From Deltaproteobacteria bacterium (GTDB lineage: Bacteria > Myxococcota_A > UBA9160 > UBA4427), in assembly GCA_029261855.1 (NCBI GenBank), contig JAJDAN010000082.1, forward strand, positions 1-41,419: 41,419 nt of DNA, in the 5' to 3' direction. The notes below the pieces were generated by a model. The model was not told where the DNA came from. It was given only the letters and a program-made list of their open reading frames with translations, and did not search any database. Positions 37,290 through 39,914 of this stretch are shown here, in pieces. Within the stretch, counting starts at the first letter, position 1. Each line of letters begins with the position of its first letter. The position numbers were made by a program, and so were the translations under genes.

Positions 37290-38255
37290 CTAGGGCGTGA
37301 TCTCGTCGCCGTCGTGGGCGACCACGACGCGGCCGGAAAAGGTCTCGGCGACGTGGCTCGTCACCTGGATGTCGTAGAAGGGCGGCGGCCGCATCTTGAT
37401 CAGGACCAGTGTGCCGACGTTCGTTCGGGAGGCCAGCTCGCCGATGTCGAGCAGCGAGCTGTGGATCGCGGCCTCGCGTCGCAGCCGTTCGGGGTCGGCG
37501 ACGACACCGGCCTCCTCGACATCCTCGGGCGGCGGGACATAGACGGCCTCGTGCACCAGCAGGTCGACTCCCTGGGCCCAGCTGCTCAACCGCTCGTCGC
37601 CCCAGCCGACACCCGACACCACCACGCTGTGGCCGCCGGCGTCGAAGCGCCAGAGCAGGGCCGGCAGCGGACCACCTTCCACAGCGGCGGCGCGGACGGA
37701 CAGATCGTCCCAGCCGGTCTCGAAGCCTTCTCCGGCCTCCGTCACCTCGACCTGCATGCCGCTCTCGGCCAGCTCCAGTGCGCCGCCCAGTCCGCGCTGT
37801 GAGCGCCGATAGGCTTCGAGAAGCTTCGTGACGAAGTCCCGGGTGCCGACCGGACCGAACACCTGGATGCCGTGCAGGCGGTCCTGTCGCCAGCCGGTAA
37901 AGAGCAGGTCGTCGAGGCCCATCAGGTTCTCGGGCATCAAGCTGGTGAGGAAGACGCGCGACGGCTGGGCGACCGGGATCTTGGACAGCCGAAGACCCTC
38001 TGCGACGCCGCGACCGACATCCACCAGCGAGACGCTCTTCAGCCAGGCGATCGCCGTGGTCGCCCCGAGCCGCTCGGGGTTCTCGTAGGGGCTGCCCGTT
38101 CCCACTGCGACGACCGTCAGCTCGTTGTACTGGCGCTCTTCCAGGGGCCCCACCAGCTCGCCCACCTCGGCCGCGCGCCAGATGACGCAGGACGCGACCC
38201 AGCCGACCGCGAGCACGACCGCAGCCAGGGTGAGGGCGAAGATCCGGAATCCCAT
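37290..38255 (-). CDS. Metallo-beta-lactamase-fold protein lacking metal ligands (321 aa)
   Basis: The order of strands matches RNase Z/arylsulfatase-type MBL hydrolases: VVAVGTGSPYENPERLGATT, SVSLVDVGRGVAEGLRL, GLDDLLFTGWRQDRLHGIQV with FGPVGTRDFVTKLL, DLLVHEAVYV, and AAIHSSLLDIGELASRTNVG with TLVLIK. The diagnostic HxHxDH is replaced: VFLTSLMPENLMGLDD (102-116) has no His. The SGD aspartate is replaced by SGVG (214-217), and the late LTH has become LIK (K287). H235 and H265 remain. It is therefore probably a non-catalytic member. An N-terminal helix (about 5-27) suggests membrane anchoring. ATG 38255 lies 22 bases after purU on the same strand. Confidence 0.82.
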   Translation of the reverse strand: MGFRIFALTLAAVVLAVGWVASCVIWRAAEVGELVGPLEERQYNELTVVAVGTGSPYENPERLGATTAIAWLKSVSLVDVGRGVAEGLRLSKIPVAQPSRVFLTSLMPENLMGLDDLLFTGWRQDRLHGIQVFGPVGTRDFVTKLLEAYRRSQRGLGGALELAESGMQVEVTEAGEGFETGWDDLSVRAAAVEGGPLPALLWRFDAGGHSVVVSGVGWGDERLSSWAQGVDLLVHEAVYVPPPEDVEEAGVVADPERLRREAAIHSSLLDIGELASRTNVGTLVLIKMRPPPFYDIQVTSHVAETFSGRVVVAHDGDEITP

Positions 38256-38277
38256 CAGGCGCCTCTCTTCATTTCGA

Positions 38278-39135
<858 letters not shown>

Positions 39136-39168: not shown

Positions 39169-39197
39169 TTGACCCTTCCCAGGGCGTCCGATAAGTT
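39169..39197 (+). promoter_or_regulatory. Sigma70-like promoter of the 39.2-39.6 kb RNA candidate
   Basis: TTGACC at 39169-39174 matches the -35 consensus at five of six positions. A -10-like region GATAAGTT covers 39190-39197: TAAGTT gives a 17-base spacer, GATAAG a 15-base one. The -10 match is only moderate. It points away from purU towards a stretch with no plus-strand protein gene and a strong plus-strand terminator 360 bases further on. Confidence 0.55.
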
Positions 39198-39202
39198 CCC
39201 TG

Positions 39203-39602
39203 ACAGGGGGTCTCACTCACTCCCGAGTTGCGGTCCCGGCTGGCAGATGCTGGTTCGGGGGCGGAGCGGCCTGGAGGGGCGGGTACGGCGCCCACCCTGG
39301 ACGCCAGGATCGAAAGCGAGGTACTGGGCCTCGCTGGTCGTCTCTTCGCCGGCATGAGGAGGAAAGCAATTGCAAAGTAGCTGTACTACGGCGAGTGAGG
39401 TGACGGCGCTCTAGCAGCGCATCGATCCACGGTGCACCTCCTTCGGGAGGAACTGGGGCGCGTAGCACCCAGCGTCACCGTCCCCGAGAGCGCGGACTGC
39501 CGTAGCCGCCACGGGATATCAAGACCAGGATCCGCTCTCGGGGGTCCACTTTCATCGGGCCGGTCCTCTCGAACAGAGAGAGGACCGGCCCGTTTCTTTT
39601 TC
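39203..39602 (+). ncRNA. Candidate structured noncoding RNA of about 400 nt, class not recognised
   Basis: A promoter-like site, no plausible ORF and a strong terminator delimit a plus-strand transcript. Perfect helices can be drawn in order: CTCACTC (39212-39218) with GAGTGAG (39393-39399), a long-range closing stem; inside it GCGAGG with CCTCGC and others; GGTGACG (39399-39405) with CGTCACC (39473-39479), enclosing GCGCT/AGCGC (39406-39420) and GGTGC/GCACC (39431-39469) capped by CCTCC-TTCG-GGAGG (39437-39450); CCCCGAGAGC (39482-39491) with GCTCTCGGGG (39534-39543); and the terminator. This is three adjoining domains, one a branched junction with a UUCG tetraloop. It lacks the conserved cores of RNase P RNA, tmRNA, SRP RNA and known large riboswitches that I could test by eye. 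The 5' end is estimated from the promoter. Confidence 0.6.
39557..39602 (+). terminator. Strong intrinsic terminator
   Basis: A perfect 14-bp stem, GGGCCGGTCCTCTC (39557-39570) with GAGAGGACCGGCCC (39578-39591), loop GAACAGA, is followed by GTTTCTTTTTC. The T-run is on the plus strand only, so it ends plus-strand transcription. The only plus-strand unit it can serve is the RNA candidate, since purU upstream is on the other strand. Confidence 0.9.
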
Positions 39603-39726: not shown

Positions 39727-39844
39727 CTTGGGTCCGGGTCGAGGGGGAGGGCAAGCGACGACTGGCGGTATGCAATCGGCCCGCGAAGGAACTACTGCGA
39801 AGGGTGGGAGGAGCGGCGCTCCCCCTCGACCCGGACCCCTGGCA
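39727..39844. repeat. Inverted-repeat element, family B, copy 2
   Basis: A 118-bp element nearly identical over its length to 24491-24605. Its ends are a perfect 20-bp inverted repeat: GGGTCCGGGTCGAGGGGGAG (39730-39749) against its complement at 39819-39838, with 69 bases between. No transposase or credible ORF is inside, and no target duplication directly flanks it. The form suits a MITE- or REP-like element moved by an enzyme encoded elsewhere. Between the terminator and this element (39603-39726) I see only a weak resemblance to family A (GTCCGCGAATCCGCAGCGGC). Confidence 0.85.
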
Positions 39845-39849
39845 ATGAA

Positions 39850-39914
39850 GCGTGCGTCGCGGCGGCTCCCCCTCGACCCGGACCCCGTGCAACCCAGCAT
39901 GCGTCGCGGCGGCT
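39850..39914. repeat. Solo right end of family B between 18-bp direct repeats
   Basis: A second copy of only the right end, CTCCCCCTCGACCCGGACCC C, lies at 39866-39886. It is bracketed by GCGTGCGTCGCGGCGGCT (39850-39867) and GCATGCGTCGCGGCGGCT (39897-39914), which differ at one base. The second copy includes the 3' end of the cyclase gene. This looks like a partial duplication that joined the element's end to a copy of the gene's end. Confidence 0.7.

Follow-up and report, generated by a model that had tools for sequence, protein, structure and literature searches.

Comparison with its relatives indicates that the window (the whole stretch of 41,419 nucleotides analysed here) carries a real RNA gene on the plus strand at 39204-39543. 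Our best explanation for this gene, to which we assign a probability of about 0.5, is that it encodes a single-copy, translated long form of the multi-phylum Ms_IGR-5 family, which would be switched by ribosome passage. Somewhat more tentatively, the family as a whole might represent a multi-phylum class of free-standing, ribosome-gated switches, that is, RNAs in which the translation of a fixed-length open reading frame (ORF), and not the peptide, would be conserved since it opens pseudoknots by which the ORF is clamped to the terminator domain.

The conserved RNA (the long form, which runs from P1 through P6) was delimited at 39204-39543 (+) with R1, a full-length covariance model built from 40 homologues of the window's order, the window sequence being one of the 40 (cmsearch, 216.7 bits, E 2.8e-58), and the same model found a single copy in the window's genome. 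Of 61 relatives, 49 gave homologues in a BLAST search with the unit as query, mostly a single copy per genome, and a 23-base pattern (at most two mismatches) placed the RNA in 66 of the 91 genomes of the class. The same pattern matched 0 of 11 genomes in the class's second order, which R1, unlike the pattern, does match (f12). One genome, G021, carries two diverged copies (L014 and L072), with the ORF intact in both. The viral contigs searched for the RNA gave no match. The features of the gene and its flanks, all on the plus strand, are as follows.

39169-39174 and 39190-39195 (+): predicted promoter, with a -35 box TTGACC and a -10-like GATAAG read from the sequence; the GATA offset is conserved.
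39206-39224 (+): P1 hairpin, with double changes at 4 of 6 pairs; its loop, CUCACUC at 39212-39218, provides the 5' strand of PK1.
39227-39267 (+): variable arm P2/P3, with double changes at 7 of 9 pairs in P2 and 4 of 5 in P3.
39316-39334 (+): P4b hairpin, with double changes at 4 of 6 pairs; its conserved CUGGG loop is retained in other classes.
39358-39366 (+): Shine-Dalgarno (SD) sequence GGAGGAAAG; SD-like sequence in 56/56 order homologues.
39370-39414 (+): 14-codon ORF (MQSSCTTASEVTAL, then the stop), TTG start and TAG stop; frame, start and stop conserved.
39386-39392 (+): 5' strand of pseudoknot PK2, CUACGGC, within the ORF; partner at 39499-39505, compensatory changes in the order and across families.
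39393-39399 (+): 3' strand of pseudoknot PK1, GAGUGAG, within the ORF; complementary to the P1 loop.
39399-39405 (+): 5' strand of P5, GGUGACG, within the ORF; partner at 39473-39479, double changes at 3 of 7 pairs, kept across phyla.
39455-39470 (+): P5b hairpin; 93% of cells paired, one-sided changes only.
39473-39479 (+): 3' strand of P5, CGUCACC; covariation, kept across phyla.
39482-39491 with 39534-39543 (+): P6 stem; 99% paired, double changes at 5 of 10 pairs, encloses P7 and P8.
39492-39509 (+): P7, within P6; its loop (39499-39505) is the 3' strand of PK2.
39514-39518 with 39529-39533 (+): P8, within P6.
39556-39601 (+): downstream intrinsic terminator read from the sequence, a GC-rich hairpin with a T-run; absent in relatives.

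The alignment of the 40 homologues comprises 74 pairs in 12 helices, and standard pairs fill 92.8% of its cells vs. 40-49% when the 3' partners are slid. The covariation check that the earlier note had called for revealed double-sided changes at 33 of the 74 pairs and a score reached by 0 of 500 shuffles, with the caveat that phylogeny is not fully removed from the shuffle and slid controls, the slid control retaining it. Several compensated pairs occur in each of P1, P2, P3, P4b, P5, P6 and P8, and P7 never varies, which is consistent with, and not proof of, its pairing. Overall, the aligned homologues strongly support the pairing of the RNA, and the independent, structured plus-strand RNA gene that the earlier note had proposed was borne out by both homologues and covariation. 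Two of the helices drawn there, P5 (GGTGACG/CGTCACC) and the 10-bp stem that corresponds to P6 (CCCCGAGAGC/GCTCTCGGGG), were recovered with covariation above chance. The folding energy of the single sequence gives weak support for an RNA gene (MFE z = -5.1 over 39203-39602, which includes the downstream terminator, and -1.7 for the RNA once that hairpin is left out). Just 5' of the SD, a CGCCG strand has two mutually exclusive partners in the order, CGGCG (P4, upstream) or UCUCGGUG 3' of the ORF (the three lie in columns 88-92, 154-159 and 265-270 of alignment A2), and the exchange between these partners represents a possible switch around the ribosome-binding site; the UCGGUG strand 3' of the ORF can pair locally too, so that both P4 and the alternative to it are tentative. 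An internal anti-SD that hides the SD was not consistently enriched. In acidobacterial loci L157, L161, L196 and similar ones, a hairpin 3' of the ORF contains a complement of the locus's own SD (CUCCUCCUUUCC or CUUCUUUCC), a feature that is not consistent across the acidobacterial group.

The two ends of the gene came out somewhat differently from how they had been drawn. At the 5' end, the promoter elements noted earlier, TTGACC and GATAAG, are both present, and the -10 can be regarded as conserved since 49 of 56 homologues have GATA at a near-fixed offset, 12-17 nt before the aligned 5' end, vs. 2 of 56 in a control stretch, whereas the TTGACC -35 is common only to the window and its sister genome. 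A transcript from this promoter would be ~340 nt long, judging from the sequence. At the 3' end, a T-run of at least four within 12 nt after P6 is found in 41 of 56 relatives, which argues for P6 as the family's terminator stem; this T-run is degraded in both the window and its sister genome, and the 14-bp terminator at 39556-39601 is, by the comparison made here, peculiar to the window's lineage. That is, the hairpin with its T-run, which had been taken as the terminator of the unit, does exist but is not the family's own, as the relatives end at P6 and a T-run.

The earlier note also saw no plausible ORF in the unit, and this view did not survive the comparison, as the SD and the ORF are kept in 56/56 order homologues, in each case with a start, a stop and 14 or 15 codons. 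The window's version reads TTG CAA AGT AGC TGT ACT ACG GCG AGT GAG GTG ACG GCG CTC TAG. Start codons (GTG 25, TTG 18, ATG 13; n=56) and stop codons (TAG 33, TGA 16, TAA 7; n=56) interchange within the order, in-frame length changes are multiples of three (e.g., L026), gaps of other sizes precede the start, and an SD followed by a start and by a frame that stays open into the core is found for frame 0 in 56/56 vs. 1/56 for each other frame. Across all groups, the 132 distinct ORFs start with GTG (51), ATG (51) or TTG (30) and stop with TAG (78), TGA (38) or TAA (16), never TGG; since stops were located by reading to the first one (and the Fisher value ignores relatedness), the fixed length counts more than the absence of TGG. 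This length is 12 codons in 42/42 actinobacterial loci and 11 in 20/21 acidobacterial loci, the tiny reading frame spanning 11-16 codons across the family. For an actinobacterial relative, published ribosome-profiling data show significant ribosome reads on MS_IGR-5 homologues in M. abscessus and M. smegmatis (PMC4974804). From the sequence comparisons, we consider it very probable that the RNA is translated. A structured noncoding RNA with an incidental ORF would be compatible with the strong covariation and the lack of peptide constraint (below), but it would leave unexplained the SD, start, frame and stop in 56/56 homologues, with interchanging start and stop codons and 3-nt in-frame length changes, as well as the ribosome reads on the actinobacterial relative just cited, and we regard this reading as highly improbable.

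What the translation produces appears to matter less. Under a micropeptide-messenger hypothesis, the peptide ending in E-V-A/V would be the product and the fold would only tune translation, and it is the case that GAG GTG (E-V) near the ORF end is kept in nearly all 132 distinct ORFs (GTA and GTT occur once each). However, the conserved E-V codons are the P5 strand, residue changes in the ORF track RNA pairing (GGC/GCC to GAC/GUC), and dN/dS is about 1 along the ORF, with values of 0.97-1.29 in the window's order, 0.70-0.89 in Actinobacteria and 1.0-1.9 in Acidobacteria (few sequences), the codon and dN/dS counts being made without phylogenetic correction on a very short ORF. Therefore, we view this hypothesis as improbable; translation, not the peptide, looks conserved across the sequences compared, and the peptide is probably a by-product. 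A text search of the literature for the peptide, covering few subscription journals, returned nothing relevant.

The Rfam search suggested in the earlier note gave no match at gathering score over the whole window; RF02471 (Ms_IGR-5) reached 18.4 bits vs. the gathering cut-off of 45 bits, and at E 0.001 it had no match in the window's whole genome, 14 control genomes being equally silent. RF02471 was the only recurring Rfam family in 20 short homologue loci (6/20, 18.8-26.7 bits), always spanning SD to terminator in the same register. Six of the actinobacterial loci tested are RF02471 above gathering, with the actinobacterial relatives at 48.7-109 bits, and none of the acidobacterial, myxococcal, spirochaetal or nitrospiral loci tested is. 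After its SD, the RF02471 consensus reads as an ORF (UUG AUU GAU UUA UGG ACA UGU GAG GUG GCU GCC CGC UAG), and the core common to Ms_IGR-5 and the window's RNA consists of the SD, an ORF with GAGGUGG, the CACC partner strand and the terminator. More specifically, the two share an extended SD, an ORF ending in ..EVAAx before the stop, a GAGGUGGC strand that pairs with CACC (P5) and a GC-rich terminator; Ms_IGR-5 differs in being ~184 nt long, with its promoter directly before the SD and without a 5' domain, whereas the window's form adds ~150 nt (P1-P4, PK1). We consider the assignment of the window's RNA to this family almost certain. Of the two options left in the earlier note, a new class was too strong a term and a diverged known RNA was close to the mark: by its sequence, the RNA is a strongly diverged, extended, translated relative of a described but unexplained sRNA. 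Excerpts of the respective papers report an Ms_IGR-5 transcript in S. lividans (PMC8079986) and M. smegmatis (PMC10454040) and an sRNA unit in S. avermitilis (PMC8780764), and neither these excerpts nor that of PMC4974804 give a function for it; the Rfam entry is for an sRNA, and no description of an ORF in Ms_IGR-5 was found in the literature searched. With the alignment, covariance models and ORF provided here, what Ms_IGR-5 does can be tested directly in M. smegmatis or Streptomyces, both of which have a known transcript.

The family extends well beyond the window's class. R1 matches other classes of the phylum (Myxococcota; f18, f27, f39 and f43, with E down to 4e-21), and 10/10 loci fetched from R1 matches outside the order have the ORF, typically after AAAGGAGGUGAUCC. 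R2, a core covariance model partly built from other phyla, matched 56 of 189 phylum genomes with one match each (window E 3.3e-9), and the further R2 matches inspected have SD and ORF in all but L318. A scan of an 84,980-species genome collection with the pattern AAGGAGGTGATN{22,34}GTGAGGTGG, which fixes the SD and GTGAGGTGG and leaves start, length and stop free, gave at least 80 loci, about 76 of the listed ones having start, short ORF and stop in place; four of those listed (L158, L175, L200 and L233) were rejected as false matches. The listed loci come from Actinobacteria (Streptomyces, Kitasatospora, Nocardia, Nocardioides, Brachybacterium and others), Pyrinomonadaceae and other Acidobacteria, deltaproteobacterial MAGs, one MAG each named Nitrospirales and Spirochaetia, and two named Wallbacteria; in 13 of the pattern-scan genomes R2 found one copy, and in one of them two. 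R1, trained on the window's order only, matched actinobacterial loci in register (E 2e-5 to 0.004), the Spirochaetia locus (E 0.002) and the Nitrospirales locus (E 2e-35), and such matches outside the order are a non-circular test of homology between these sequences. The acidobacterial loci are not matched by R1, and these are probably members based on their SD, ORF, CAGUUCACCG strand and terminator. Both Actinobacteria and Acidobacteria have the short form, with the -10 directly before the SD, and the window's order has the added 5' domain. A literature search for an earlier description of this wider family, covering few subscription journals, returned nothing relevant. Our results thus link an unexplained actinobacterial sRNA to RNAs of Myxococcota, a Nitrospirales MAG, a spirochaete MAG and probably Acidobacteria, and this multi-phylum spread implies an old, basic role.

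In other classes and phyla, the SD is often AAAGGAGGUGAUCC, which is fully complementary to the 16S 3' end; in Acidobacteria, the start lies 13-16 nt past GGAGG, which is long for efficient initiation. Many homologues match the 16S 3' end with a perfect complement of 13-14 nt, which, together with the ribosome reads on MS_IGR-5 (PMC4974804), would fit a dual-function regulatory RNA or 30S decoy, in which the SD and short ORF hold or titrate ribosomal subunits, or an alternative form of this idea, in which the RNA acts on mRNAs by base-pairing in trans and has its turnover controlled by translation. However, the window's own SD is short, and titration would not need the elaborate covarying fold of the long form; we judge the two forms, taken jointly, to be rather unlikely. 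Among dual-function sRNAs, VcdRP of Vibrio cholerae is likewise a free-standing RNA carrying a small ORF, and its small protein was reported to be functional (PMC8672173), whereas the peptide of the window's RNA is without sign of constraint.

Other known RNAs were considered as well. RNase P RNA class A (RF00010) and tmRNA (RF00023) have no match at the locus, and the genome's own copies sit on other contigs (C40, 251 bits, and C21, 159.8 bits, respectively), in agreement with the earlier note. tmRNA resembles the window's RNA in being a stable structured RNA of ~350 nt with pseudoknots and a short ORF, but the ORF studied here has an SD and a start codon, and Rfam matched no tRNA-like domain. 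6S RNA (RF00013) has no match in the window's genome and was found in 1 of 21 genomes checked (G037 only), a scarcity that may simply reflect the RF00013 model missing the 6S of other genomes. The 6S-bearing G037 (L041, G037:C644), 99% complete, is without the window's RNA in every search, which is one case. Subthreshold Rfam matches to plastid psbJ, mir-3158 and suhB fall on the hairpin at 39556-39601 or the flanks.

The 7-bp long-range stem drawn in the earlier note is present, and there are actually two such stems, CUACGGC with GCCGUAG (PK2) and CUCACUC with GAGUGAG (PK1). The PK1 pairing is perfect but invariant (40/40), so it is without covariation support, and PK2 has two compensated pairs among the 40 homologues of the order. 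Beyond the order, the ORF stretch was compared with its own terminator-hairpin region in 20 family representatives (Myxococcota and deltaproteobacterial MAGs), giving a mean run of 7.1 vs. 5.9 in the swaps, none of the 400 swaps doing as well; the 20 include one representative (L047) for which the wrong place was measured. The PK2 pairs differ widely in sequence (CUACGGC/GCCGUAG, GACGGUGA/UCACCGUC, UCGGUGA/UCACCGA, CAGUGAC/GUCACUG), and the comparison indicates covariation across families for PK2, which joins the ORF strand to the terminator-hairpin loop. In Actinobacteria and Acidobacteria, duplex energies computed over longer stretches were no better than those of swapped or shuffled partners, so that tethering to the terminator loop may be confined to Myxococcota and Nitrospirales.

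Under the ribosome-gated model that we favor, the gene's own promoter would give rise to the structured RNA, and its SD would load a ribosome that starts the 14-codon ORF, the strand of which would double as the 5' strand of PK2, the 3' strand of PK1 (partner: the P1 loop) and the 5' strand of P5. The start of PK2 lies 16 nt past the start codon, which is about where the footprint of an initiating ribosome should end; hence, initiation would be compatible with the fold. The elongating ribosome would then unzip PK2, PK1 and P5 in that order, providing two states, a ribosome-free clamped one and a translated open one, through which the RNA would report or respond to translation. Comparison of homologues shows the RNA structure, the covariation of PK2, the homology with the actinobacterial sRNA and an ORF whose SD, start, frame and stop are conserved although its peptide is not constrained; the switch step itself is what we infer, and a free-standing ribosome-gated switch has, in our estimate, about an even chance of being correct. 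Its output may be target pairing, a partner protein, RNA stability or 30S titration. The conservation of the RNA would then have a testable reason, namely the remodeling of a covarying fold by the passing ribosome.

Pairing of the ORF strand with the terminator hairpin, at its loop and flank, could also point to an attenuator leader, in which translation of the ORF controls terminator read-through into a downstream gene; as in translated attenuator leaders and uORFs, translation of the short ORF would compete with helices beside the terminator. Unlike these, the window's RNA has no conserved downstream gene. The RNA is divergent from purU, 68 bp apart (neighborhood at 37290-39135 of the window), and, as counted in the window's order only, purU lies beside the RNA in 40/56 loci and a metallo-beta-lactamase-like gene in 48/56. 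Downstream genes vary among the order loci, the adjacent downstream gene in the named loci is found on either strand (36 to 24), with no consistently co-directional gene, and in the window the RNA is followed by a second terminator and by no plus-strand gene. The variable downstream genes and mixed strands argue for a free-standing RNA, as the earlier note held in stating that it is not a simple leader, and make the attenuator slightly less probable, in our view, than even the micropeptide messenger. Finally, a repeat element at 39730-39911, between the RNA and the cyclase gene, combines a direct repeat of 47 nt with inverted arms of 23-31 nt (GGGTCCGGGTCGAGGGGGAGGGC / GCGCTCCCCCTCGACCCGGACCC).
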